Assembly (NCBI GenBank): GCA_025174535.1
Contig: JALBUN010000045.1
Location: 558,001-622,000, forward strand
Reading direction: 5' to 3'
Source of the DNA: Cantharellus purpuraceus
Lineage: Eukaryota > Basidiomycota > Agaricomycetes > Cantharellales > Hydnaceae
DNA length: 64,000 nucleotides
Shown here: in pieces, positions 15,773-58,494 of the stretch
Layout: every line of letters starts with the position of its first letter
How positions within the stretch are numbered: the first letter of the stretch is position 1
Notes under the pieces: model-generated
Told to the model about the DNA's origin: nothing
The model's input: only the letters and a program-made list of their open reading frames with translations
Databases searched by the model: none
Program-made: the position numbers and the translations under genes

Positions 15773-16072
15773 GTAAGATAAAAATGTGAAGAAGGTAAAA
15801 AAAAGAAATACCTTTGAACTCTTCAATAAGACAAAGGTAAAGATATGCAATAACATTCTTCAACTGGTTGTTTGGGACTGTCCAGAGACCCAGCCACTTT
15901 CCAGTCCACACATCCCAGATTCCATATACAGGAAACCCAATTCTATTTAGCTTATCATGACCATCCATACTCCAAAACTCATGTGGTCTGATTGATACCA
16001 GAGCCATGCAATAGATTCTCTTTGCTGTAGGTTCATGAAGGGTAAACCCTGCAGGATCATGCGTATGCATGA

Positions 16073-16638
16073 GACGCTTATTCAGAAATACAACAAATAC
16101 GTATGTACAACCTATTTTCCTCAAATTTTATACAATACACTTCAATTCAAACTTATTTTCATATTTCAACATGATTCTCAAATTTTACACAATATACTAG
16201 ATTAAAACATATTTTCATATTTTGGCATAATTCTCAAAAATAATTCTTTTTTTCCTGATTTAGTGGTGGCAACTCTCTTGAAGGAACATCCAAATATCAT
16301 TGATTCTTTCTTATACAATACTTATAACATAATTTGAACTATCTTTAATCCCCACCTGGTATTTGTATATCTAAATACCCTATATAATACCAATTATATT
16401 AATACATACATTCCTATTATATCCATGTAAATAATTATGTTCATCTCAACCAAATGTCTTATCTTTAAAAGTTTATTAAAATATAGAATATATGTTTATA
16501 TTTATGAAAATTTCACACATCCGAAATCTTTTAAGATATCCAAATTGTAACTCCCTGGCTTTATGTATCATTGAAATTCTGATGTATATCTCATATACAT
16601 CAGAATATTGTATACTGACATGATTCCGAACAAGCGTC
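16073..16638 (+). repeat. Left terminal direct repeat of the DDE transposon
   Basis: 566 bp, differing from 23223-23788 at one or very few bases (CATATTTC versus CATACTTC). It contains a hairpin at 16576-16606 with 14-bp arms (ATTCTGATGTATAT) and a 3-nt loop. A diverged third copy lies at 51345-51947. Confidence 0.9.
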
Positions 16639-16717
16639 TAGGGAGGTCATTTTAAAAACAAAAATCATCACCTTATATCATCAACAAGCTTCTTTCTCCA
16701 TAGATTTAGACATGCCA

Positions 16718-17215
16718 TTATGAATTCTTATCTTCATTGGTATGTCTGGACACTGTCCAACACAGCAAAGCCAATAGTATACCAATACTAGTTATGTAGA
16801 TCATGTGCACTGTACGGCCAAGATATAGTTTCTGCCTATTTATATCTGGGCCTGGCTGTCTAACAAACGCCTGATTCACATGTGTGGTTATAATGTGTGC
16901 ATATCCAGAGGTTGGATCAGAACCACTTACAAATCTGTTGGTTTTATTCAGAAAACCTGCAAATTCTGCTACAAAAATAGGATCACTTTCATTATAGCCT
17001 ATTTTATCAGGTTGTAGACCAAGAAATACATATTTGATATGAGGATACTTTGAAAGCTGGAACACTTCACCTTCAGCATATGAACGGTCCAGATACTGCC
17101 CAAAGGGGTACCAGTCACACGTTGCACAATTAGCTAGCCGGTGTGGATTGCTGTGAAAAGGCTTTTGGTAAAACTGTTGATTGAGACGCTGTTTCAGTAA
17201 TGGATCAGTCTCCAT
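16718..17215 (-). CDS. 165-residue protein with a C-terminal membrane segment
   Basis: The ATG at 17215 opens an uninterrupted frame. The N-terminal half is soluble (QFYQKPFHSNPHRLANCATC, then DPIFVAEFAGFLNKTNRF). Near the C-terminus MIYITSIGILLALLCWTV would span a membrane, leaving a short tail (SRHTNEDKNS). It looks like a tail-anchored protein, unusual cargo for a transposon. No family is recognised. It lies just inside the left repeat, downstream of and on the same strand as the transposase. Confidence 0.55.
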   Translation of the reverse strand: METDPLLKQRLNQQFYQKPFHSNPHRLANCATCDWYPFGQYLDRSYAEGEVFQLSKYPHIKYVFLGLQPDKIGYNESDPIFVAEFAGFLNKTNRFVSGSDPTSGYAHIITTHVNQAFVRQPGPDINRQKLYLGRTVHMIYITSIGILLALLCWTVSRHTNEDKNS

Positions 17216-17270
17216 AGATACCTATAAGTATAAAACATACAAATATTCAATTTTATTCTGGGAAAAAAAT

Positions 17271-18745
17271 TTACAGTTGAATGTAGCATAGGTATACAAT
17301 AATACTATTACTATTGTCTTTCCAATACTCTTTAATACATTCTGTAGATTTAAAGCTTGATGTTGCTTCCCAAGTTTTCTCTGCATAACATTTCCATTTA
17401 ACTAAATATTCTACGTACTTTCCTTTTTCTTTGCCTTATTATTTGTTCTACTTCATTTTCAGTCTCATAATGCATCTCCACATCATACTCACATCTTTCT
17501 AATAGTCGTTGTTGAGATAGAGTCATCTTGTCAACATCTTCTGCTCTTTCCAGTAATGATCTGGGTGGCTCAATATCTGGGTCCTCTTCCTCAGGGTAAT
17601 CAAAATATTGTTCACACCATTTTTCATGATAAGGGGATGGTTTGATCTTACGTAGTTCTACAAATTTCTTAATATTCCATAATAGACATGCTACCTTTAA
17701 TTCCAGATTAAAGACAGCAGGATTTGTAGTTCTAATAGATCTCTTATTATCAAATTTTTCAAACAATATTGCAAACCCTCCAAAGAATGCTTCTACTGTT
17801 GAACGAAAGGCACCAAACTTCTTATTAAAAATCTTTTCTTCAGGTTTAAGTTCAACATTTTTTGGCTTCCGAAAAGGATAAAAGAAGTTCTTAGGCTTTA
17901 ATATACTTGCCTTTACTACTTCTGGAATAGCAGATGGATAAGCTCCATCAAAGCCTATCTGATCATTCTTATCTATTTTATTCCATACAGCCATCTCTAC
18001 AAACATTTTTGCATCAGGATTTAGTTTACATGCCAATGAAGGTGAGGTGAATAGAACCATTTGATTAATGTCAATGCATACTTGAGTACGAAATCCTGCC
18101 TTTTTAAATTTATGTGAGTACCCCTCTTCAGATGTCGATCCAATCAAAATTCCTCTTGTATCATGACCATCAAGAAGTAATGTCACTGATTCCATTTTTG
18201 GAGGATTCTTTATAAGAGCTGATAATATCCTTATTATTATATTTGAGAACATTGTACGCAGTGAATCAGTAACTTGTTTATCTAGATCAAAGTTAAGATG
18301 ATGCAGACGACCATAAAATTCCTTATGAACATCATAAAAGCTACTTGATGGCATGAAATTTCCTATTTCTTCATAAGTAGGACCTTTGAGTAGATGATAT
18401 AGTACTAACAAGCCTTTTTCTATCTCTCTATAAGGTGTAGAATGTTCTTCAACTGAAAACAATACCACAAGAAAGAAAAATACTGGTATTGGTCCAAGCT
18501 TGTTATATACTACTTTTTTACATCATCCATGTCATTCATATCTTTTAGTTTTGTTCTATGATATTTTTGTGTTCTAAGACAGGCCACTTTGTGTATAGAA
18601 AATTCCAATGATTGTCCATCAACTTATTATATGCTCTGTCCCTTTGATCATTCCACATTTTAAGTTGCTGAAGCTCTTTTTCTTCTTTCTCTTTTTGCTC
18701 TTTCTCTTTTTGCTCCTTTGTGCGTTTTTGCTGGTCTGAGGGCAT
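17271..18745 (-). pseudogene. DDE transposase with C-terminal chromodomain, frameshifted in A runs
   Basis: Begins MPSDQQKRTKEQKEKEQKEK. The catalytic region reads VTLLLDGHDTRG (first Asp), IGFDGAYPSAI (second Asp) and KFGAFRSTVEAFFGGF (Glu), the layout of fungal DDE-superfamily endonucleases. After EVEQIIRQRKRK the frame shifts by one base. The continuing frame reads YVEYLVKWKCYAEKTWEAT and ECIKEYWKDN, a chromodomain, ending at TAA 17271. Two more one-base breaks lie near 18570 and 18508 (run of six A), where the open reading moves frame while the protein pattern continues. Correcting single A-run bases would give one intronless gene of roughly 490 residues. Whether the breaks are real or sequencing error is open. 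Confidence 0.65.
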
Positions 18746-18841
18746 TTTGACTAAGATACTCTTATATTACAGTAAAACAAAAATATGTTCATTTTTTTGA
18801 TAATTGAATTTTAAATTAAATAATATTTATTCTATGAAGCT

Positions 18842-19492
18842 ATGTTGTCTGTCTCTAAGCAAGTTGTTAGTAAAATATCTACTGTCTTTGTTAAAAAAGA
18901 ACCAGAGGATGATGAAAATCCTTTGTATATAGACTCTGACACCATCTACATAAAATTCAGATTAAGAAATCCCCCAAAGGACTTCTTTCCAGCTGGATTG
19001 GTTTCTCAGGAAAGAGATAAAACACCAGAAGCACTGTACAATAAGATGATTGAAAAGGGCAATGAAATAAGTAATTCAACCTGGATTCAACAAAATCATT
19101 GTATGTCAAGTCTGCAAACCATGCAACAGGATAATCTGCCTAGTTGTAATATTTCTATTGCTAGAGAAACTGGCAAGAAGTGTGATATTTCTATTGCTGG
19201 GGAAACTTGTAAGAACTGTGATGTGTATAACAATTTGGTTACATCAATGGTTGTTGCATTGAAACAACAGCAGAGAGTTTTCAAGAAAAGTAAAATCACA
19301 ATCTATGGTATGATCATAACTAAGGATGGTAGGTTAAAATTATATGAAACCACCAATAACAATCAGGGTGTTTCAATTGTTGTATATCCTTCCTCTGGAT
19401 ACAGCATAGAAGCTCAGTTTGAAGAGTGTTCTAATGCTATTGACATTATATTCCAAAGTATAAGAAATCAGATGTTCAAAGAATCCTCATAA
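18842..19492 (+). CDS. 216-residue unrecognised protein of the DDE transposon
   Basis: Uninterrupted from ATG 18842, divergent from the transposase with only about 100 bp between starts, so a shared promoter is likely. Near the N-terminus FVKKEPEDD contains a VKKE sumoylation-type consensus. The middle has a duplicated segment with paired cysteines (CNISIARETGKKCDISIAGE, then TCKNCDVY). The C-terminal half (KITIYGMIITKDGRLKLYET..) looks like a compact alpha/beta domain. No known family. Being divergent to the transposase suggests a regulatory or accessory transposition role (inference). Confidence 0.55.
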   Translation: MLSVSKQVVSKISTVFVKKEPEDDENPLYIDSDTIYIKFRLRNPPKDFFPAGLVSQERDKTPEALYNKMIEKGNEISNSTWIQQNHCMSSLQTMQQDNLPSCNISIARETGKKCDISIAGETCKNCDVYNNLVTSMVVALKQQQRVFKKSKITIYGMIITKDGRLKLYETTNNNQGVSIVVYPSSGYSIEAQFEECSNAIDIIFQSIRNQMFKESS

Positions 19493-19510
19493 GGAGTTGA
19501 TTTAAAAGTC

Positions 19511-19742
19511 CTAGTTTCTACACTCACAACATTTTTCATCTATTTTCACTTGGATAATTTCAAGATTTGAACTTTTGTTCACACAACAATAAGTACCATT
19601 AGTATCATGATGAGTATTTTTTGAATGTTCAGAGCTCTTAGGACATTTAATATCCTTACAATCTGTAACTACAGATGTAGTAGTTATATGATTGCACTTC
19701 CAAGTAATTTGAATTTTTCACTATCACCACACATGCCTTCAT
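19511..19742 (-). pseudogene. Small Cys/His-rich protein with one A-run frameshift
   Basis: The ATG at 19742 starts MKACVVIVK. At the following run of five A the frame must shift by one to continue as WKCNHITTTSVVTDCKDIKC, ..TYCCV.. and ..KCCECRN, stop at 19511. The total length is 231 nt plus one extra base, so a single surplus A explains the break. Product of about 76 residues with ten cysteines and several histidines, possibly metal binding. Too short and unfamiliar to classify. Confidence 0.4.
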
Positions 19743-19785
19743 TTGAGTGAATAAAAATATTGCATATTCACTTATCTGATTTATC

Positions 19786-19995
19786 TTATACTTGTTGTAG
19801 TGCACGTAGTGGTAGCTGAATCTCATTGTCATCATAAGTAACAGTTATTAGCAAAGTGTCATCTGACAAAGTGCCAGTTACTAATGTAACAATACCTGTC
19901 ACTGTCATTTGTGTTCTTGCATTGATAAATGATACCTTATCACCAATCTCAGGTATATTCAACATGGTGTCTCTGGTTATTATATTAATTTTCAA
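19786..19995 (-). CDS. Small beta-rich protein, 69 residues or fewer
   Basis: ATG at 19995, or the internal Met at 19965 (MLNIPEIGDKVSFINA). Alternating hydrophobic strands (TVTGIVTLVTG, LLITVTYDD, IQLPLRAL) suggest a small SH3- or KOW-like barrel. It is spaced 44 bp before the Cys-rich ORF on the same strand. No family is recognised. Confidence 0.4.
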   Translation of the reverse strand: MKINIITRDTMLNIPEIGDKVSFINARTQMTVTGIVTLVTGTLSDDTLLITVTYDDNEIQLPLRALQQV

Positions 19996-20001
19996 AACTC
20001 A

Positions 20002-20247
20002 TTATTTCTCATCTAATTTCCTATCAAGTATATCTACAAACTTCTTAAATGCTTCAAAACACTGTAGAACATTCTTTCTACTATTAATATGTTTCATACC
20101 TGTTACTGTTACAGGAAAACAACACCTTACATTTGTTTTCACTTCTGAAAACAACCCTTCTGTGATAGCATGATCAAGCCCTCTTGTAACAGTTACTAGG
20201 TAAAACTGGGGGACTTTTCTCGATGTTTGAATGCAAGGTATTGTCAT
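20002..20247 (-). CDS. 81-residue ORF of the DDE transposon
   Basis: ATG 20247, product MTIPCIQTSRKVPQFYLVTV.. ending FKKFVDILDRKLDEK. It lies 6 bp before the next ORF on the same strand. The frame is open further upstream (KNKGKSALEE), so the true start or an upstream exon may be missed. Function unknown. Confidence 0.35.
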   Translation of the reverse strand: MTIPCIQTSRKVPQFYLVTVTRGLDHAITEGLFSEVKTNVRCCFPVTVTGMKHINSRKNVLQCFEAFKKFVDILDRKLDEK

Positions 20248-20324
20248 TTCCTCTAAAGCACTTTTTCCCTTATTCTTCCTTATCTAAGTATGTAAAAATT
20301 TTCTTGAAGACTCCTTTAAACATT

Positions 20325-20492
20325 TCACATCATCTTTTTGTAATCAAAACTGAGGATCTCATCATCAGTATCTAAAGTAATATCTCTAAAATCTGTCTCA
20401 AAAAACTGTTTAGTCCATTGTGTGTCAACCATTATACCATAATCCCAAAGATCATGAGAACTCCAATCATTGCACTTCTTATCTTTACCCAT
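20325..20492 (-). CDS. 55-residue acidic ORF
   Basis: ATG 20492 to TGA 20325, product MGKDKKCNDWSSHDLWDYGI.. ending FDYKKMM. It is rich in Asp and Trp. It may be a first exon of the following ORF, but a clean splice in phase was not found. Function unknown. Confidence 0.3.
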   Translation of the reverse strand: MGKDKKCNDWSSHDLWDYGIMVDTQWTKQFFETDFRDITLDTDDEILSFDYKKMM

Positions 20493-20573
20493 GATGTCAA
20501 TAAAGAAGGATATATAAAATTTATTTACTAGATATGTGCATAGTTCTGAAGAGCAGAATGTCCATATTTTTAT

Positions 20574-20735
20574 CTAATATTTATAAATTGAATTATATAT
20601 ATTTTCTAAAGTTGTCAATAGCCAGATGCATGCACTCGTTCTGAATACTACAACAAAGTCCCATACAGAATTCCCTGTCCTTTCATCTATCATTCTTCTA
20701 CCAGTTCCTTGTTTCCTATCTTGCCAGTCTTTCAT
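20574..20735 (-). CDS. 53-residue ORF of the DDE transposon
   Basis: ATG 20735, product MKDWQDRKQGTGRRMIDERT.. then a hydrophobic stretch (VWDFVVVFRTSACIWLLTTL) and stop at 20574. It lies just left of an inserted LTR and may be truncated at its start. Function unknown. Confidence 0.25.
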   Translation of the reverse strand: MKDWQDRKQGTGRRMIDERTGNSVWDFVVVFRTSACIWLLTTLENIYNSIYKY

Positions 20736-20765
20736 TCCAAATTCTTTGCTGCATAGCTAAATAGG

Positions 20766-21599
20766 TGTACCAGCCGATTGGATATTATCATATCATGGTA
20801 ATGACGTCGGATGGAAGGTCACCTTGTCAGGAGCAGTTTGATCACATTATCAAAGGACAGCCTTTTGGCTGTGAGGGTTGATAATGATGCACTTACTGAG
20901 CAGACAGTAGGTGAGACTTTGCAGCGGCATGGTGTACCAGATAATTGAATCGTTGTCCTTGAGCAGCCCGATGATGTCACTCGGTGTCGGTTCGCTTATG
21001 GAATAGATCCTATAAGCCTGCGTGCAATGGTCCTAGCAAGCAGACGGTGTGTAACGCAGTTGTTCAGCACTCCAAAGATCAATCAGGGCGAGGGGTTCGT
21101 AACAGGGAAGTGGGATAGTGCTCTGTGGTTGGATGAGGATGGGAGCAAAAGGTCGGTCCCGATGGCTGATCGTGCTCTGTGACTGGATGACAATGCGGAG
21201 CCCGGTTGGGAGGTACGCGAAAGCTGGTTTCAGGAGAAGCAACCTCTCGGTGGCGGAGGGAAATCTGATCGTTGAACCAAGGTGTTTTACCTCAGTGTAG
21301 AGATGATGGATTGTGATGTAGAGTGTAGACTTAGAGCGTTGGCTGAAAACTTGTTTTTTGATTCCAAAGGCAAAAACTAGCGCCCTTTTATATACAAATT
21401 CCCAGGGCACAACGACACAATATGAGGAGCAAATGATGCAAGAAATGCTGATCAAGCCAGCTGACGAAGCGTGTGAAGTTGAGCTACTAAAGGGGAAATC
21501 ATGGAGAAATGAAACGACAGATAGGGACATCATTAGACTGCTCATGGACAGCCATTCACTCCAAGGTGACCTTGTATCCTACGTCTTCGGAGGCTTACA
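20766..21599 (-). mobile_element. Family-C LTR (plus a little internal sequence)
   Basis: On the reverse strand it starts TGTAAGCCTCCGAAGACG and contains a block homologous to 45080-45615, including TATATAAAAGGGCGCTAG. It ends ..GGCTGGTACA. Compared with the copy at 44213 it lacks the roughly 800 bp that hold the ORF 44419-44853. CpG is retained, so it is fairly young. The 5-bp flanks (ATAGG, TTACT) do not match. Its right edge abuts the TAA stop of the coiled-coil gene. Confidence 0.65.
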
Positions 21600-22693
21600 T
21601 TACTGGGTTCTCCCTCTACATCTTTTTCTTGAACTAGGAATTTGAGATTGATCAGAGTCTGGATCAGATTGATCAGAGTCTGAATCAGATCGTTCCTTAG
21701 ACCTTTTTTCTTGATGCCTTGAACTAGGAGTTTGAGATCGTTCCTTAGACCTTTTTTCTTGATGCCTTGAACTAGGAGTCATTCCTTGCTTCCATGTTTG
21801 AAAATTAATCCTATTACCATCTACGTCATATGATGACATTTCATTCTTTCTAGTATATATTGTAGATAGTTTTCTAGGCTCACCATTTATGAATAATTCC
21901 ATTCTATTTAGTCTACAAGACTGATCTGAGTCTATAAGTATATAGTCTACACCTCTTTTCACTATCTTAAATGTCACCTTTCTGGTACCATTTTCCTGTA
22001 ACCTTGTTACCTCCTGTTCTTGTTTTCCAGCCCAGTGATTCATATCAAATTTCCAGTCAACAATCTCAGATATTATTGCTTTATATTTATCACCCTGTTT
22101 CTGAAGTTTATTAATGTCTGTTCCAAGTTCCACTACAGTATCATCTGTTTCTACAATCCACTCATGCACTTCAGATTTCCATTCCACAATGTCTGATATT
22201 GTTGCAATACATCTATTAACCTGTTTCTGAAGTTTATGAATATCTGTTCTATAGTCCAATATAAGATTCTCTGCATTATGTGTATTGACCTGTTGATGAA
22301 TATCTGTTCCATGGTCTGATATTGTGGCAACACACCTATTAACCTGTCTCTGAAGTTTATGAATATCTGTTCCAAATCCTGATACAATATCATTCATTTC
22401 ACTCATCCATTCATCTAAATTCTCTTTCCTGTCTGTCAAAGTAGTTATAATTGTATTTTTTCCTCAACCTGTTTCTTAAGCACCTGAATTTCCTGACTCT
22501 GGGAATTAACCTGTTGTTCAAGCATAGTGATCTGCCTATCCTTTTCACTCATCCAAGACTTGACATTTATAAGATCAGATATTAATTCATCTTTTACTTC
22601 CATTTGACTTGCCATAGCTTTTATCAGTGCATCATTGTCACTTATCCAGCCTTTGATTGCTTTTATATCTTCAAAGATTTGTGGCATTTTCAA
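21600..22693 (-). pseudogene. Coiled-coil repeat protein with an SR/acidic tail, one A-run frameshift
   Basis: ATG 22693: MPQIFEDIKAIKGWISDNDA.., heptad-rich to VLKKQVEEK. A run of six A near 22456 shifts the frame. The next frame continues TDRKENLDEWMSEMNDIV and holds several copies of a repeat like GTDIHKLQRQVNRCVATISD. A folded-looking region follows (KVTFKIVKRGVDYILIDSDQ), then two copies of TPSSRHQEKRSKERS and an Asp/Ser tract. The TAA stop touches the inserted LTR, so the C-terminus may be cut. About 360 residues if rejoined. Likely oligomeric and nucleic-acid binding (inference). Confidence 0.5.
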
Positions 22694-22833
22694 ATCCCTC
22701 TCTGCTTATAAAACAGAAATGAAAAAACATAATAATCATTTTTTCTGAACATTTGATATTTTGTATAGGCAGTAGATATATACATCTTGCTTTCTTAATA
22801 AAATGATTATTATGTTTTTATGTTATAAGCATT

Positions 22834-23160
22834 ATGAAGATGCTCTCTTTTATGCTTCAATGCAAGATAGAGTTTGATAGAAGAGTTAATGATTGGTATA
22901 TATCTCGGATAGGATCCCTCCATGATTTGTTTCTGAGGTAAGTTCCTTTATAAATATCAAGGTTCCAATCACTGACTTTATACAGATGTACTGATGGCAC
23001 ACTTCTGGAACAGAAATTAACAGAGTTATATACTAGTATGGAGCAGGATCATTATTTTCCACCACTTTGGATGGAAAATCTGATGGTATTGCACCCTAAA
23101 GTACGAGGGATAGTCATACGGTCTTATGTTAGAACAAGATTATCTACCACTATGCCCTAA
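22834..23160 (+). CDS. Two-exon gene for a 92-residue protein
   Basis: Exons 22834-22937 and 22986-23160. The 48-nt intron begins GTAAGT, has a CTGAC branch-like site and ends ATACAG. The junction keeps frame and the total is 279 nt. Product MKMLSFMLQCKIEFDRRVND.., LYTSMEQDHYFPPLWMENLM.., ending RTRLSTTMP. A spliced, uninterrupted frame makes this one of the most credible genes of the element. It is divergent from the coiled-coil gene, 140 bp apart. No family recognised. Confidence 0.6.
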
Positions 23161-23222
23161 CTAAGTTACTTTGTTTTAAAAATAGCTTCACTGCATTAAA
23201 GGTGTTTCCAAGACTTTCCTAA

Positions 23223-23788
23223 GACGCTTATTCAGAAATACAACAAATACGTATGTACAACCTATTTTCCTCAAATTTTATACAATACACTTCAATTCAA
23301 ACTTATTTTCATACTTCAACATGATTCTCAAATTTTACACAATATACTAGATTAAAACATATTTTCATATTTTGGCATAATTCTCAAAAATAATTCTTTT
23401 TTTCCTGATTTAGTGGTGGCAACTCTCTTGAAGGAACATCCAAATATCATTGATTCTTTCTTATACAATACTTATAACATAATTTGAACTATCTTTAATC
23501 CCCACCTGGTATTTGTATATCTAAATACCCTATATAATACCAATTATATTAATACATACATTCCTATTATATCCATGTAAATAATTATGTTCATCTCAAC
23601 CAAATGTCTTATCTTTAAAAGTTTATTAAAATATAGAATATATGTTTATATTTATGAAAATTTCACACATCCGAAATCTTTTAAGATATCCAAATTGTAA
23701 CTCCCTGGCTTTATGTATCATTGAAATTCTGATGTATATCTCATATACATCAGAATATTGTATACTGACATGATTCCGAACAAGCGTC
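23223..23788 (+). repeat. Right terminal direct repeat of the DDE transposon
   Basis: 566 bp, nearly identical to 16073-16638, same orientation. Its outer end (GAACAAGCGTC) is followed by the TGA target duplication. The same 14-bp-arm hairpin is at 23726-23756. Confidence 0.9.
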
Positions 23789-24164
23789 TGACATCTTCAA
23801 CAACATCACTGTTGCAAGTATTAATAACATAGTGCAGAAATCTTGGCTAAGTGATACTCACTATTTGAGTGTGATACCTGTATCAAAGTGAATGGCTTCT
23901 CTGATCAGATGTGGACCTTTTCAATGATTTGGGTCCTTTTCAAGCTGATCTAACACATGCTGCCATATCTCTACCTCTGATAGTTCTTCAGTTGTAGCCT
24001 TGCTTGTTGTATAAGAATTAATAAGGATATAAGAACCAAATGGACATACCTCATAGTTATTCCATGTTCAGCAAGCAGCATCCTACTAACCATTTTCTGA
24101 CCTGATATGCTGACATGGTCATACTTCTTGAGAATAGAAGAAATCCCATCATCATTGGCAGGTG
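23789..24164 (-). pseudogene. Integrase-core protein gene, N-terminal exons
   Basis: The reverse strand reads APANDDGISSILKKYDHVSI and MLLAEHGITM, then after an intron (GTATGT.. at 24049) ATTEELSEVEIWQHVLDQLE, KDPNH-stop-KGPHLIREAI, and after another intron DVVEDV, which joins MHTHDPAGF at 16070 once the transposon is removed. The stop replaces an arginine of the family (CGA to TGA). The helix-turn-helix-like N-terminus followed by the DGHDK core is the usual order of this family. A family-A LTR sits about 60 bp upstream. Confidence 0.68.
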
Positions 24165-44212: not shown

Positions 44213-45620
44213 TGACAAGCCAGGACGCATTGAGGACGTATATCGAACCACTCTGACAGTCCAACTCTGCCAGCATCTTTTCATATCAACTTTTAAATAG
44301 CGCTGCAACTCCCTCTCCACCTCAGTCTCTAATTCTAGCCATCAATTGTCACTCGTGTTTCATCGCCATCGATCATTATCAGCCTTCTATTCACACCCAT
44401 CCTTTCATCATCATTCACATGGCTTCCAATTCTATTCCCCTCTCCAACATCACTTCTAATAATACGTCACACTGGTCTCTGGACACAGAGGACTATCAAA
44501 AATACGCCGAGCTCCACGGGCATGTTAAGCCACCTCCACATGTCAAAATACTTCCAAAACTCTTTCAACGTCCAAGATCCCCACCATGTCTCTCTTATGC
44601 CATTGGCAATCCTATATTCTTTCACAATTCCATTGAACCATATACATTCCTCAGCATTTCGCCTCTATATCATAACACAGATAGAAGAGTTGAACGTGAG
44701 GTAGAATTTCAGTCGCCATTGCCGACCTATCCTCCCACTTCAATCCGACTCAGGTTACATTGTGTCAGGCAAAGGGACCGAATACCCTTGGAACGGGATA
44801 TCATATGGAGACGTATCACTAAGACAATAAGGAGTATTTGTTGTGGATGCTGACTGAAGTCCTCATGTGACTCAGGGTCAATTTACCTTCGGAGCTGTAG
44901 GGAAGATGGTATTGGTGGACGTTTCTATTGTTCTTTTATATGACTCACCCCTGTTTCATCTTTTAATTCATTCATACATGACTTACTCATCCTTGTTCTA
45001 TTTTTGGTTCTTTTATTACTCATCACCCCCTATTCATACAAAGATTACCCCTATCTGTCACTTCATTTCTCCATGATTTCCCCATTAGTAGTTCAACTTC
45101 ACACACTTCATCAGCTGGCTTGATCAGCATTTCTTGCATCATATCGCATCATTTGCTCCTCATATTGTGTCGTTGTGCCCTGGGATTTGTATATAAAAGG
45201 GCGCTAGTTTTCGCCTTTGGAAAAAAACAACAAGTTTTCAGCCAATGCTCTAAAGTCAAAGTCCACGCTCTAAGTCTACGCTCTACGCTCTACATCACAA
45301 TCCATCATCTCTACACTGAGGTAAAACACCTTGGTTCAACAATCAGATTTCCCTCCGCCACCGAGAGGTTGCTTCTCTTGAAACCAGCTTTCGCGTACCT
45401 CCCAACCGGGCTCCGCATTATCATCCAGTCACAGAGCACGATCAGCCATCAGGACCGACCTTTAGCTCCCATCCCCATCCAACCACAGAGCACTATCCCA
45501 CTTCCCTGTTACTTACCCCTCGCCCTGATTGATCTTTGGAGTGCTGAACAACTGCATTACACACCGTCTGTTTGCTAGGACCGTTGCACGCAGGCTTATA
45601 GGATCTATTCCATAAGCGAA
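44213..45620 (+). mobile_element. 5' LTR of the family-C element, end approximate
   Basis: The start TGACAAGCC is fixed by the matching 3' remnant. The block 45080-45615 matches the reverse-strand copy at 20766-21599, including the TATA box at about 45190. The 3' boundary is uncertain: similarity to that copy stops after AAGCGAACC near 45620. Confidence 0.55.
44419..44853 (+). CDS. 144-residue ORF within the family-C LTR region
   Basis: ATG 44419, product MASNSIPLSNITSNNTSHWS.. with LSYAIGNPIFFHNSIEPYTF and a basic C-terminus ending ITKTIRSICCGC. It lies in the 800 bp that the other family-C LTR lacks. No known domain. It may be captured sequence or an LTR-encoded protein. Coding status is uncertain. 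Confidence 0.3.
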   Translation: MASNSIPLSNITSNNTSHWSLDTEDYQKYAELHGHVKPPPHVKILPKLFQRPRSPPCLSYAIGNPIFFHNSIEPYTFLSISPLYHNTDRRVEREVEFQSPLPTYPPTSIRLRLHCVRQRDRIPLERDIIWRRITKTIRSICCGC

Positions 45621-45635
45621 CCAAGTCCCAACCAG

Positions 45636-51181: not shown

Positions 51182-52218
51182 TGTTATGACTATATTCATT
51201 AATGCCCAGGTCCCTGTCCGATCCACTCAGATCCCCACACATATGAAACCTATACTCCATTTGGAAACCACCACGTCTCCATTTACCTGTCTGATTGTCA
51301 CTGCTGATTCCACCCATCCATCTCCGGTTCCGATTGATGCATCAGCATTGTTTGGAAGGATGCTGTTATACAATATTCTGATGTATACAAGATGTACATC
51401 AGAATTTTAATAATGATCATAAAAATAGGGAGTTACAATCTGGATATCTTTAAAGATTTCGGATATCCGAGTTTTTTTGGATATCTTAAATTTTTATAAA
51501 TATAAATATATATTTCATATTTTAATAAACTTTAAAAGATAAGATGTTTGTTATGGATGAACATAATTGTTTATATGAATATAACAGTAATGTATATATT
51601 AATATTATTGGTATAATAGAGAATATTTAGATATACAAATGCCAGGTGAGGATTCAAGGTACATTAGATTATTTGTCCAGTATAGTACAAGAAAGAATGA
51701 GTGAAAGAAATTAAGTGTAGCAGGAGTAGAATGTTCCCTTGAAGTAGTTGCCACCAGTAAATTAAAAAAAAAGAATTATTTTTGAGAATCATGTCAAAAT
51801 ATCAAAATATGTTTTAAATCTAAGTAAATTATATAAATTTGAGAATCATGTATGAAATATCAAAATATGTTTTAATATAAGTATATTATATAAAATTTGA
51901 GGAAATGGGTTGTATATACATATTTGATGTATTTCTGAACAAGCATCAAACCCAGACATCTGTCCCCATCAGACTCAGACATACTCATGTAAGGCCATCG
52001 GCCTTGGAGACCCATCACCGGAGTAGTTATTATTAGATTTCAAATATGTATTTAAGTTGTCTGACTGGGGACTTCATTCCCCAGTTCAAATATCAAATCA
52101 CACCTAGTTCCTAAGTCTGATCCTAACTCTCTAAGTCGTACTCCATCTCCAAAATCTCAGACACCGGTATTAGTGAGGGTGCAGCACATAAGCTGAAGCC
52201 AAGTCCATTCTGACCCCC
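51182..52218 (+). mobile_element. Family-A 3' LTR, interrupted and broken at an inversion junction
   Basis: Starts TGTTATGACTATATTC. It is interrupted by 51345-51947 and continues to ..TTCTGACCCCC, where it stops at the point where the reverse-strand piece 14811-14891 begins. The two pieces make one complete LTR. Confidence 0.78.
51345..51947 (-). mobile_element. Solo, diverged copy of the DDE-transposon terminal repeat
   Basis: About 603 bp in reverse orientation relative to 16073-16638. It shares the ends (..GAACAAGC), the blocks ATACAATATTCTGATGTA and GGGAGTTACAATCTGG, and a hairpin with arms ATTCTGATGTA/TACATCAGAAT. It lies inside a family-A LTR between GCATCA and AACCCAGAC, with a few LTR bases lost. 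The repeat can therefore exist alone, like a MITE or a solo LTR. Confidence 0.75.
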
Positions 52219-53728: not shown

Positions 53729-54190
53729 ATGTCGGATGAAATCTTGGTGAGCCTGAGATTGCCCTGGACTACGCGACACCCAGCTTACGAGTACGCTTTT
53801 TTATTCGATCCCCAGGCCGGAGACATTGTCGCCGTCAACGTGCAGTCGTATGGCCGTAGAGAAGGCCTCGTCGTAGGATCCCACATTGACGTACTGGTCA
53901 GTCCTATCCATCGATCATGCCCAGGCGTTGGTTGATTTGCTGACGGGCTTGCGTTTCTGTTTGATTGCTTGTTTACTTCTGCGTAGGGCCGTCACATTGT
54001 CGAGATCCAATTCGACCCCGGGGATCTATACCAAGCATGGTAAAGCTGTCCCTCTGTCTTCGTGTATCCTCCTCGGGCCTCCAGCTAACCACCCATCAGG
54101 TACCCCACCGTCACGCGCGTACGCCGAACGACATACTACCTCCCTCCCGCGCGGAGGAGCATGACCGTCGAGCGCAAGGTCTATTGGTAG
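53729..54190 (+). CDS. Three-exon gene for an unrecognised 103-residue protein
   Basis: Exons 53729-53896, 53987-54039 and 54100-54190 sum to 312 nt. Introns of 90 and 60 nt start GTCAGT and GTAAAG and end GCGTAG and CATCAG. The phases agree. The product starts MSDEILVSLRLPWTTRHPAY and includes YAFLFDPQAGDIVAVNVQSY, HIVEIQFDPGDLYQAWYPTV and a basic tail RRSMTVERKVYW. The alternating pattern suggests a small all-beta fold. No signal peptide. It converges on the ubiquitin protease gene. The family is unknown to me, but the gene model is coherent. Confidence 0.65.
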
Positions 54191-54765
54191 TCACATCGCC
54201 TTCCCATTCCATATCATCCCTCCTGGTCCCTCGTAACCCTTCACAGCCTTACCACATCCAATCCCCCCCCCCGCCCTCACCCGTATCCCATGAACCCATG
54301 AACCCAACCCTTTTCCAGGACCCACTCACACACACATCCCGCCCATCCTTTGTAAATACGTCATCATCTTGCTCTGCTCCCCGCCCCACCCCCTTCCCCT
54401 TCCCTTCCCTTCCTTCCGGGGATGTCAGACCTTAGGCCTAAGGAGCTAGTCAAACGGCCTGTGGGACGCTTTCGTTTCTATCATTACATACTCTTATGTT
54501 AAAACCCTCCTTGCCACAACCACACACATGCTGCAGTCATTTCTCTTGGGATCCCAGATAGACTGTAAGCTTCAGCTTCAATTTTTGTCTGTGGCGTGTA
54601 TCGCAAGTAAGGTGCAAGTGTGATCCATGACTAGAATATGAGAACACCGTACGAGCGAATAATCACAAATGGACATCTCTATGGGTACAACAATAACAGC
54701 TTCACCAACAAAAGCAACAATAGCAACGCCAACTACAGACAATAAAAACATGCTACAGTATACCA
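54191..54765. other. Intergenic region between convergent genes
   Basis: No coding signal. It contains pyrimidine-rich runs and should hold the two 3' untranslated regions. Confidence 0.5.
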
Positions 54766-57492
54766 TTACGCGAGAAGGCCCACTGTCCGTGCAGGAGACG
54801 GCGATGGTGGCCGTGCCGCATGTACGGGCTGGGATGACCCCACATGCAAATGATGATGCTGATGTTGCGGCGACCGCGAAGACGACTGAGACAATGACGA
54901 CGACGATGAAGGTGAAGACGAAGGCAACACGGGCCCTGTCGTCGGGGGCGGCAGTTTTGCTGTATCTTGTTCACTCGAGATCCCTCTCGCCGGCTCATCC
55001 CCCTCCTCCGCTCCAGATGCCACCCCCCCATCCATACCCATATCACGCACCGCATCCCCATTCGACGTGGGCATCGACATCGACATCGCCACCATCTCCA
55101 CTTCAACCGTGCGCGCTGCCTCCAACCGCGGCGTCATAGGCTCCGACTCATCACACACGCCGCACGACGACGACAGCGACGTCGTCGACGCTGACATGGA
55201 CTCGAGCAGCGACGACGCGGGCGACAAATCGCGCACCGACGGCGAGCGAGACCGCCCTGCATACACGCTCCGCACCACACGTGCCCCACCGCGCGGATGC
55301 AACTGCGGAGGCGGATGAGGACTCAACGCCTCCACCAACGACCCAATCCCCACGCCCACGCCCACATCCCCATTCTCTTCACGCGCCCCTCCAGACACAG
55401 GCTTGATCGTCTCCTCCGAGCTCCGCGGCGAGCTCTGCCCGGCAGGCCACATCGCCAGCCGCGGCTGCATCACACGCTCATAATACAGCATAAACGTCCC
55501 TGCCGTCTCCGCCAGCACCCGCTCGATCCCCACCTCCTCCACGCTCTCATCGCTGATCCGCAGCCACCGCGACGCCGCGTACCCCGGCATCTCCCCCGTC
55601 GCCAGAACCCGTGCTCTCCCACCGCTGCCCCCGACATCCGCATCCCGAATCGGCCCTAGTACTTCACACTTGTCACACTCACATCCCAGGGGACACCGCA
55701 ACGTCGGCGGCTCAAACCGACCCCGTCCCGCCCCTTGCAGCGCTGCGCGGGGCTTGCGCCGGTACGCCACGTAATGCCCAAAGCTATGCGCGCCAAAGTG
55801 GCACACGACGGCCGCGAGCCGGTACAACACGCGCGGCGCGTACGTGGCGGGTGTCGGCGTATTCGAGCGCGGCGGTGGCGTGCAGGCGGGCGAGGAGATA
55901 GGCGCGGAGGGCGAGGTGGAGAGTTGGCCAGAGGTGGTGAAGGGCGTCAGGTCGAGGAGCTCTGGGAAGAGGATGCGGCACGTGTTCTTGATCCCAGACG
56001 TGCCGTAGTGGATAGACCGGTTCAGGTGCAGGGCGAGGACGAGAGGAGGCTACAGCAAACGGTGTCAGACAAGCCCATAGGTAACACTGAAAGCGCACTC
56101 GAGCAATCATGGCTTGTTTAGTGGAGCACCGACTATACACCTTCTCCATCTTCACACCCTTGATATCCTCCTCAATCCGCCCTTCATCCAAAGCAGCCTT
56201 GACGCGCGCCTCGAGCTTTCTCGCTTCTCGCGCACGCTTCCTTTTCGACGAACTAGGGTCACGATCCGCCGACACCGCTTCCGTCGCCTTCTCTGCCTCA
56301 GACACAAGTCGCTTGTACGTCGCCAGCATGGAACATCTGCGACATATGCAGTCGTTCAGCAACTCTAACCGCGTGTAATCCGTCAGACAGTCCTCCAACC
56401 GACAACTTGCCTGTGGCGCACCGTCAGCACGTTGCACGCCATGGTGCACGAAGGGAACGGAGCACTCGCCATGCGCGGTACCGCCAATTGCCAATTGTCA
56501 AACGCAAAATGCATGACAGCCTCGGTATACCCACACTCGACACAGCTCCTCCGATTGGCAGTCAAGCCATCAAACACACCCTTCTCAGCGTCTTTCTCCC
56601 TCCCCGCTGCCATCCCCGCATATTCCGGTTCTTCGCTGGGCGCTCTACTCAGCTCGCCTAGTCCACGATCACGGCTCTGCTCCTCATCCACAGCCTTGGA
56701 CTCGTTCTTGACGCATTCCGAGAGAAGCTGAAAAAGCTCCTGTGCGTCTTGGTGCTCCCGGGAAGAGAAGAGAGCACTTCGTTGTTTTCCTGGCTCGGGG
56801 GCCGAGAGCGCACTTATGATTGCAATAGGGCGAAGAGCATGAGGGCGGGAGGTGGGGGTGTTGAGGTCTGGAGGGTGGATCAGGCATTCGACGCGACATA
56901 GGGCGACTGCTCCTACCGATGAGAGCGTCCCGCAGAGCGTCAATGACGGGGGTGGGAACGTCTAAACGTTCAGCTCGCGAATGTATGGCATCGATGTAGG
57001 GGTGTAAATAGGATAGAGACGCCATCGCCTAGAGTGAACATGAGTTCAGGGTGGCTGTGGCAACAATGGAGCAGACCTGCAGTGTTGAATTAAGAAAGCA
57101 ATATGTCCCAGATATGTTGACCAGCCCGGGGTAGTATCTTTCGTTCTCGTTGGCACCTGGTGAGAATATCACGATGGCGCGCATACATACTTGTACGCAA
57201 TGGGCTTACTCTCTAGTTTCGCAGCAACCTGATCTGCTCGTCGCATGTGCTTCTTCCGAGACGACTTCTTGCCCTTCGCTGTCGACGACGGCGCATCATG
57301 ATTGTATAACCAGCTCCAGGCATAACCGAGTCCCAAATTCTCAAATAGCATCGCCACAAGCCACGGAAGAGCGTTCCCGGCCCTGTGATATGTCCCTAGT
57401 GCGAGTAGAGGTGCGAATATAAAGACGATGAGCAAAGGAAGTATTTGTTCCCAAGGAGTGCTGGAGACGATGCGACGCACGACGTCAAGCAT
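54766..57492 (-). CDS. Membrane-anchored ubiquitin carboxyl-terminal hydrolase (USP/UBP family)
   Basis: Six exons: 57492-57210, 57156-57077, 57028-56917, 56867-56482, 56410-56099 and 56049-54766, in phase, 818 residues. The introns are 48-71 nt. The N-terminus has a membrane segment ILPLLIVFIFAPLLALGTYH (about 17-36) and a second hydrophobic stretch. The Cys box GTYCFLNSTLQAMASLSYL puts the nucleophile near residue 114. Zinc-site pairs SCVECGY and CICRRC (about 308-313) follow. The His box is HFGAHSFGHYVAYRRKP (His about 483), then WLRISDESVEEV. The C-terminal 250 residues are low complexity (Ser, Gly, Pro) and probably disordered. It removes ubiquitin from substrates. The membrane anchor suggests the UBP1/USP30 type at ER or mitochondria. 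The fourth intron (56481-56411) is the least certain. Confidence 0.88.
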
Positions 57493-57832
57493 GAAAGTTG
57501 TCCGATTCTTGAGGCGGAGTTACAACTGCAGGCTCCGCGGGGCACACGATGACTGCCACAGCGATGACCACTTGCGACGACATGAAGCCCGGTATTCGAC
57601 CTATTACAAGCAGAAAATCCCAATCATATGTTCTAGTCAAGCGGCGCAGGTACAACATATATCCCTTTCACGTTGCATCGGCGTTGGTGGAGCATCCTTG
57701 TTGTCTACTTGCCGCAAAGCAACCTGATCTTGATATGATGTGTCTCGCTATTTTGGTATAACCGCCCCCTGAAGAAGACCGATGGTAATATATATACCCC
57801 ACCGGCTGGCTGATCATGCGTCGTCCAACACA
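57493..57832. promoter_or_regulatory. Divergent promoter between the ubiquitin protease and a DUF6593-like gene
   Basis: 340 bp separate the two start codons. TAATATATATACCCC at about 57786-57797 is a TATA element about 40 bp before the rightward ATG. No TATA is obvious for the protease side. Confidence 0.45.
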
Positions 57833-58494
57833 ATGAACATTTCCTTCCTTGAGGGCAACCCCATTGACACGGTCGTTATCAACACTGCAGACGGTCGGCC
57901 TCTCTATCAAGTCAACACACCAGGGTGGTATGGAAGTCGCACCACCTTTATCAGACGTTCCGTACCCGGCGTTCCTGCAGGCTCAGGACAATTGGTCGCA
58001 GAAGTGCATTGGAAATATTTTGGGTCCGACTCCATCTCCTTTGTTGGCACAAGCATGCCTGTGAGTACATTCCTACGGCAGGACGGTATGTGGAGCAGGT
58101 AAGCAGTCAGCAGGTGCCATTGATTGTCCCCACCCACAATGTGGCTTGTTTCTTCAGATCCAGGGTATTCACCGGAACAGATGGAAGAGAGTACAAATGG
58201 AAGGCCGACTCGACAGGGATGACGGTAACGCAACATGTGACCTTCCCCACATGAACGGTCCTGACATTTCTCGGTTTCCAGTTGGTTGACAACCGCACCA
58301 GCGCGTTGATAGCTGAATCGCAGCGTAGCAAGTCTGGCTGGTTCAGCACTCCCCAGAAAATGACTATAAACATACATCCTTCCGGCATGCAGACGCTGGA
58401 TGCCATTGTAGTCAGCTTCATCGTCATGGAGCATAACATGCGCCGGCAACGGTCGACTAACACAAGTACAATTGCCGCAATAAATACCACATGA
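57833..58494 (+). CDS. DUF6593-like protein, first paralogue
   Basis: Exons 57833-58098, 58158-58224 and 58282-58494 (546 nt, 181 residues). The introns are 59 and 57 nt and in phase. The product reads MNISFLEGNPIDTVVINTAD, PLYQVNTPG, TTFIRRSVPGVPAGSG, VAEVHWKYFGSDSISF, then RVFTGTDGREYKWKADSTG, SGWFSTPQKMTINIHPSG and LDAIVVSFIVMEHNMRR. This is the strand pattern of the basidiomycete DUF6593 family (a tubby-like small beta protein), with W in the DG.EYKW motif and the LD.IV.SF..ME end. Its biochemical role is unknown. The paralogue at 61436 has the same exon structure. Confidence 0.82.

Follow-up and report, generated by a model that had tools for sequence, protein, structure and literature searches.

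How does a DDE-type DNA transposon come to end in long direct repeats that resemble those of a long terminal repeat (LTR) retrotransposon, and what makes the two repeats of one copy alike? The question is raised by a 7.7-kb element at 16073..23788 of a 64,000-nucleotide stretch of contig JALBUN010000045.1 (positions 558,001 to 622,000; the whole stretch is hereafter called the window, and coordinates count from its first letter). We followed the element through the 40.15-Mb genome assembly (50 contigs, designated C1, C2, and so on). The repeats are scrambled mosaics, and both repeats of an element carry the same mosaic, which suggests that the two were made from one. This within-element identity of mosaic repeats is new here. 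The element and its insertion site comprise the following features:

16070..16072, no strand: left copy of the 3-bp target duplication TGA, from reading the flank and comparing the joined flanks with empty sites
16073..16638, plus strand: left 566-bp terminal direct repeat with its own inverted tips, GACGCTTATTC...GAACAAGCGTC
16639..23222, no strand: interior (INT), which begins TAGGGAGGTC and finishes CTTTCCTAA in nearly all copies seen
23223..23788, plus strand: right 566-bp terminal direct repeat, with 1 difference from the left repeat
23789..23791, no strand: right copy of the target duplication TGA

The element, its insertion site and its copies

Alignment of the two repeats (16073-16638 and 23223-23788; 566 bp each) revealed 1 differing site. 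Each repeat starts with GACGCTTATTC and finishes with GAACAAGCGTC, and its tips (GACGCTT.TTC) form an inverted match at both ends, 11 bp long with one mismatch. Of the 3-mers around the repeats, the outer pair was equal (TGA/TGA) and the inner ones read TAG and TAA. Together with the DDE_Tnp_4 match of the transposase (see below), these features bear out the original prediction, made from the letters of the window, of a DDE element that ends in LTR-like direct repeats, with inverted tips on each repeat and a match between the outermost TGA pair only. When the flanks were fused with a single TGA, one frame stayed open through the junction. The joined flanks also found three uninterrupted paralogous sites in the genome (C49, C45, and C47; 93-94% over 463/500 bases), all with a single TGA at the junction. 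Because the joined frame is open and the three paralogues each carry one TGA, the insertion event, the target duplication, and the empty state of the site can be taken as established: the element arrived as a single unit and split an open frame. Excision had been predicted to restore an integrase exon; the frame is indeed open over the joined flanks, but the integrase label is weak, the best Pfam match of the split frame being a sub-threshold one to an integrase core (E 0.19).

Searches for the repeat and the interior scored the best 40 of 64-688 candidates, and the elements described here are a sample of close copies. Using patterns with up to 3 mismatches, we found 58 interior starts in the genome, at least two of which (C24:166170 and C23:1092905) resemble a diverged family described below, and 61 junctions between an interior end and a repeat. 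An earlier interior-end pattern had matched 2 copies only, probably owing to a small indel in most, and the junction pattern was used instead. The left repeat was present at 30/30 transposase loci, the junction reading GTC and then TAGGG[AG]GGTC with a one-base variant once; near-identical copies with an interior devoid of flanking repeats were absent from this set. Among 19 further left ends, 15 were complete, two were truncated (L106, L114), one was read in part only (L107), and one belonged to a degenerate copy (L116 on C18) with no repeat within 901 bases.

The outer 3-mers were equal in 34 of the 39 elements for which both repeats were read (TTA 10, TAA 9, TAT 5; ATA, TGA, TTT, and TTG 2 each; TCG 1, CTA 1) and unequal in five (C1d, C3a, C9b, C9c, C17a). 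Chance agreement from the 3-mer make-up is about 19%, that is, about 7-8 of 39 elements. The C8 and C29 elements are copies of one duplicated insertion and both were counted, so that at most 38 of the 39 are independent; two multimers, an array on C44, and the elements with one end read stand outside the 39. The recurrence of 58 starts, 61 junctions, and 34/39 equal outer 3-mers is not chance. The equal outer 3-mers and the single TGA of the three empty paralogues also uphold the prediction that the 7.7 kb moved as a unit.

The 566-bp repeat also occurs by itself. We tabulated 114 repeat instances, 18 of which adjoin neither the start nor the end of an interior; 11 of these, the ones nearest to the window's repeat, are the solo repeats used here, and the remainder comprises sister repeats (see below), pieces that are truncated or cut, and a left repeat whose junction is a variant. 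Equal 3-mers flanked 9/11 solos. A 36-mer of the repeat had 557 genome matches at up to 3 mismatches, but it is non-specific and gives no count of the 566-bp repeat; 3 mismatches separate it from L119 and L120, two diverged relatives, and 5 from the window's sister copy. Among the first 100 exact matches listed (contigs C1 to C9), 37 lay inside full elements and 63 outside. Dimers share a repeat and have kept the outer duplication (TTA..TTA on C45 and TAT..TAT on C38), and C44 carries a longer array. Interior-interior junctions numbered 0 in the genome by exact pattern, a result that is neutral for the cointegrate model considered below.

The element might have been assembled by chance, two miniature inverted-repeat transposable elements (MITEs) having landed independently around a transposase region, as the original prediction considered. 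Part of this idea survives, in that the repeat appears to be mobile by itself and behaves as a small transposon. Chance assembly does not: the inner junctions are near-constant at 58 interior starts and 61 interior ends, dozens of copies sharing them, the outer duplications pair across the unit in 34/39 elements, and the empty sites have one TGA. An independent MITE pair is thereby refuted for the family as it stands, and we hold this explanation to be exceedingly improbable; it may describe the family's origin.

Some copies showed further peculiarities. The same target, GGTTCCTATGGTGATGC on either strand, was found in C1:2359842-2373423, C36:20798-28867, and C38:6151-19236 and at the solos C15:508704 and C47:541111, and it recurs in a repeat that neighbours the element of the window (about 24400); it is either a favoured target or a common repeat. 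In the dimer at C38:6151-19236, the middle repeat is of a different mosaic type than the outer two, as if a foreign repeat-interior unit had joined. At C23:3500919-3509129, a full element apparently lies within another copy of its own repeat, with the duplication ATA. Two exact repeat matches, C3:969319 and C3:976874, have the same orientation and lie at element distance with no listed interior start or end between them; they perhaps bound an element with another interior.

Both repeats of an element carry the same mosaic

We compared repeats within and between the 39 elements. Left and right repeats of the same element differed at a median of 1 and a mean of 2.4 sites; between elements, there were 11.4 left-left, 12.3 right-right, and 11.9 left-right differences, and 0/10,000 permutations of the partners reached the within-element mean. 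In the 24 elements for which both repeats and 3.2 kb of the interior were compared, the distance correlation between left and right repeats was 0.946 (0/2000 permutations). The correlation between repeat and interior was 0.178 for the left repeat (286/2000) and 0.188 for the right (213/2000), and interior parts correlated among themselves at 0.31-0.41 (56, 56, and 7 of 2000 permutations). The same column in the left and right repeats, 7 kb apart, gave a mean r2 of 0.894 (18 columns, 24 elements); different columns within the left repeat gave a mean r2 of 0.187, with four gametes in 69% of pairs. Between repeat and interior, the mean r2 was 0.076, the interior sites in these linkage tests coming from the left 3.2 kb only. 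Over 30 loci, the mean divergence was 0.55% for the interior (0.19-0.73% per 300-bp stretch) and 2.0% for the left repeat, as if the repeats were drawn from an older pool.

This identity within elements disfavours two routes. Separately inherited ends would give separate left and right trees, which were not seen as a rule. The other route is random recombination of a one-repeat circle into a resident solo, by which homologous event full elements would mainly arise (model b1 of Kojima and Bao 2022, PMC9587614). It is favoured by the abundance of repeats that are not part of a full element (63 of the first 100 exact matches listed), by the expected preservation of target duplications, and by a few elements with block-wise different repeats (C14a, C15a, C15c, C23). 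However, one crossover gives opposite alleles at the differing sites, and the median of 1 difference contrasts with the about 12 expected, so that we consider this quite unlikely as the main route.

RNA-mediated, retrotransposon-like copying, with the repeats as true LTRs and a reverse transcriptase from another element, would account for repeats that are identical at birth and for mosaic repeats, which are typical of reverse transcription. The interior, however, encodes a DDE_Tnp_4 transposase and has open reading frames (ORFs) on both strands, the tips are 11-bp inverted repeats instead of TG..CA, and the repeats insert by themselves with the same 3-bp duplications. A tRNA primer site begins TGG, and the sequence after the left repeat (TAGGGAGG) begins differently. 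No reverse transcriptase was recognised in the interior frames scanned with Pfam. We rejected this very improbable route on the both-strand ORFs, the transposase type, and the tip and junction sequences.

Could the assembler have homogenised the two repeats of one element? The data are an assembly, and repeats 7 kb apart are hard to assemble. Such an error should have blended copies genome-wide, not left separate mosaics per element, and flanks, duplications, and empty sites are concordant; an artefact is therefore highly unlikely.

A one-repeat circle as a possible source of the repeat pair

The mechanism that fits best, in our tentative judgement and by analogy, is a one-repeat circle inserting by replicative cointegration, as in IS6/IS26 pseudo-compound transposons; we would place it slightly short of an even chance. 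The transposing unit proper would be the 566-bp repeat with its inverted tips, and the interior would supply a DDE transposase acting on the repeat. Homologous recombination between an element's two repeats would first produce a solo repeat and a circle of one repeat plus interior. The transposase would then link both 3' ends of the circle's single repeat to a target staggered by 3 bp, the circle not being cut free, and host replication over the repeat would generate a cointegrate, target-repeat-interior-repeat-target, in which the repeats are identical and a 3-bp stretch of the target is duplicated. Circles or elements could further recombine with the many other genomic repeats, giving swapped repeat types and dimers. 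A one-step cointegrate from a circle would thus yield identical repeats, a 3-bp duplication, and constant inner junctions together. The circle, the replicative joining, and the activity of the transposase are the parts of the model that we infer. Such a circle would place TAA and TAG on the two sides of its repeat, perhaps the worn remains of the repeat's own 3-bp duplication. IS6 elements offer the parallel: in the sections of PMC7986276 drawn on here, recombination excises a circle, and replicative transposition leads to a cointegrate with directly repeated insertion sequences (ISs) and new flanking repeats. The broader proposal is somewhat less secure and remains on the doubtful side of even: the element would be a eukaryotic pseudo-compound transposon of DDE_Tnp_4 type, of an origin independent of KolobokP (see below), in which cointegrates from a one-repeat circle rebuild the LTR-like pair without reverse transcription.

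Several points weigh against cointegration from a circle. Frequent gene conversion between the two repeats would equally make them alike, and cut-and-paste is the mode given in most descriptions of IS5/Harbinger-type transposases. The linkage of repeat and interior, though weak, is above zero (its r2 was reached by only 1/500 permutations), and purifying selection on coding parts could partly lower the interior divergence. A T-run at column 175 is one base shorter in the right repeat of 8 elements, with the reverse in 1, which could reflect homopolymer error or separately inherited ends. Twelve other left/right differences recur, in 2-4 elements each, including a block at columns 329-395 common to C1d and C14a and in part to C23. 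Rare alleles in elements with equal duplications are biased to the right repeat (39 vs 19 on the left), and the model predicts no such bias; elements with unequal duplications have 25 on the right vs 11 on the left.

Some of these points suit an alternative that we regard as a real if rather doubtful possibility, in which the outermost tips serve for cut-and-paste movement of all 7.7 kb, and the two repeats stay alike through frequent gene conversion or crossing over, either within the element or with its sister chromatid. Equal outer duplications in 34/39 elements agree with this, the dimers and solos show that recombination between repeats occurs, the block-like left/right differences resemble conversion tracts, and the recurrent column-175 difference and the shared 329-395 block fit inherited ends. 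Within-element conversion would, however, have to far outpace conversion from the many other repeats. Moreover, elements with unequal duplications remain heterogeneous: their left-right differences averaged 7.2, vs 1.7 in the others (one-sided Mann-Whitney p 0.005), and later differences are therefore not quickly erased. Of the duplicated insertion, the C8 copy has 5 left/right differences, while its duplicate on C29 has none.

Transposase, relatives and known systems

Besides the repeats, the window holds the following features of the interior and one copy of a related repeat:

16718..17215, minus strand: ORF1, 165 aa, no relative found; 87-92% identical between the element's two families
17271..17435, minus strand: chromodomain remnant in a frame that differs from that of the transposase (Pfam Chromo, E 3.5e-5, just below the curated cut-off)
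17398..18522, minus strand: DDE_Tnp_4-like transposase, a 374-aa open frame here (456-461 aa stop to stop in some copies)
18545..18766, minus strand: N-terminal transposase piece, in another frame in the window copy
18842..19492, plus strand: 216-aa ORF, no relative found; full length at 27/30 loci examined
19511..20573, minus strand: several short open pieces, possibly exons of one gene; no Pfam family over the cut-off
21600..22705, minus strand: two adjoining open frames of apparently coiled-coil-like composition
51348..51947, minus strand: sister-repeat copy, 78% to the 566-bp repeat, of the same repeat family as the left repeat of the diverged relative on C23

The window's ORF matched Pfam DDE_Tnp_4 at E 1.6e-4 and 21.8 bits, below the cut-off of 24.8, and three scanned relatives exceeded that cut-off (39.8, 34.5, and 27.1 bits); classification by hidden Markov model thus points to the predicted DDE type. 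We collected 44 transposase relatives at 37-52% identity, most of them listed with DDE_Tnp_4 and many also with Chromo; a host is named for three, all of them fungi (Apophysomyces, Thamnidium, Linnemannia). The triad D-74-D-52-E is kept in 45, 44, and 44 of the 45 aligned sequences. The Kolobok [CD]xxH motif between the second D and the E was present in 0/45 of them, and membership in Kolobok was rejected on this ground. An AlphaFold model of the transposase had a mean predicted local distance difference test score (pLDDT) of 87, and Foldseek with this model returned weak matches, mostly to DDE transposases and retroviral integrases and none at E 0.001 or better. Because these matches are weak, the superfamily assignment rests on Pfam, and we file the transposase, from its sequence, as DDE_Tnp_4 type (IS5/Harbinger group) and not as Kolobok. 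In some subfamilies, the transposase is split over overlapping frames identically in many copies, suggesting that broken copies may have been amplified in trans.

No relatives of ORF1 or the 216-aa ORF were detected at E 1e-3 among 5.8 billion proteins, and none of 66 pattern matches in IMG/VR was confirmed as a relative. Rfam at gathering scores and a tRNA scan both gave 0 hits in the 64-kb window. Inside the interior, a 783-bp stretch at 20803-21585 has 24-bp inverted ends (88%) and is probably a small transposon in its own right; over 538 bases it has a 90% relative at 45049-45622. Elsewhere in the window, G+C is 54-60% at 54001-58000, compared with about 45% in the surroundings.

The lone repeat first placed at 51345-51947 had been likened to a solo LTR. 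True solos of the 566-bp repeat do exist elsewhere, as described above; this copy, at 51348-51947, is instead the sister repeat and is 97% identical to the sister repeat on C23, its last 5 bp and the duplication having been lost. Equal 3-mers flanked 9/10 sister-repeat copies and an equal 4-mer the tenth (two of the ten share flanks). No partner in the same orientation at element distance was found for any of the best 40 of 683 sister-repeat candidates. The diverged relatives L119 (C23) and L120 (C35) have a 600-bp sister repeat at their left end, where the inner junction is almost unchanged; both are broken in the right half, and the pairing with the sister repeat was seen on the left only. 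The association of repeat with interior would accordingly predate the separation of the two families, at least for the left side. Compared with window 16718-19492, L119 and L120 are 87-92% identical in ORF1 and mostly 80-96% in the 216-aa ORF, and only 62-65% in the transposase, whose gene looks to have been exchanged, or to be fast-evolving, between the families.

The closest precedent is KolobokP, found in animals, which has the same architecture, solos, and multimers in the portions of Kojima and Bao (2022; PMC9587614) used here and which its authors call 'Unlike any other DNA transposons'. The architecture itself is therefore not new, contrary to what had been considered possible. In both cases a DDE interior lies between long direct repeats with their own short inverted tips, solos and repeat-sharing multimers occur, target duplications are short, and the termini are RR...YY. 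The present family differs from KolobokP, as described there, in a transposase without the C/DxxH motif (0/45), in repeats of 566/600 bp compared with about 450 or 660, and in being probably fungal. Because its transposase is of DDE_Tnp_4 type and without the Kolobok motif, the design looks independent of KolobokP, the long terminal direct repeats seemingly having a separate origin. A literature search found no second lineage beyond KolobokP, most subscription papers and all bioRxiv preprints being outside its reach.

IS6/IS26 pseudo-compound transposons likewise have directly repeated transposable ends around passenger DNA, and arrays, and the one-repeat circle with a replicative cointegrate is the mechanism that we propose here (PMC7986276, in the sections drawn on). 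The solos and sister repeats, from whose own 3-bp duplications we infer lone movement, add to the likeness. Unlike the present element, which has its DDE_Tnp_4-family transposase in the interior and 3-bp duplications, those elements are bacterial or archaeal, carry in the repeat a transposase of a different family (IS6), and make duplications of 8 bp, according to the same sections.

The PIF/Harbinger-IS5 group shares with this element the DDE_Tnp_4 domain, short inverted tips, and 3-bp A/T-rich target duplications, a trait seen here in 34/39 elements, 9/11 solos, and 9/10 sister repeats. Unlike in that group, both ends here consist of a 566-bp direct repeat that bears inverted tips of its own; typical PIF/Harbinger members lack long direct repeats, have a single inverted-repeat pair, and encode a Myb/SANT-like protein as well. 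Pfam gave no Myb/SANT match in the interior ORFs scanned, nor, for the comparison with KolobokP, a match to a His-Me finger (His-Cys box) nuclease in the open interior pieces scanned, although diverged or spliced genes could escape. With LTR retrotransposons, the element has in common long direct repeats that are alike within the element, solo repeats, and a target duplication; it differs from them in its inverted tips (GACGCTT..AAGCGTC), in TAGGGAGG after the left repeat, in the 3-bp duplications, and in ORFs on both strands.

Long terminal direct repeats are usually taken as a hallmark of retrotransposons, with KolobokP as one animal exception, and repeat finders that label LTR-like pairs 'retrotransposon' may misfile elements such as this one. 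The KolobokP authors, in the portions cited (PMC9587614), left open how the repeats are maintained and whether circles are involved, treating one-repeat circles and an IS26-like unit as open possibilities; the identity of repeats within elements makes this question directly testable. A second case, from a transposase group unrelated to the first, suggests repeated origins of the design and probably a mechanism that it serves.

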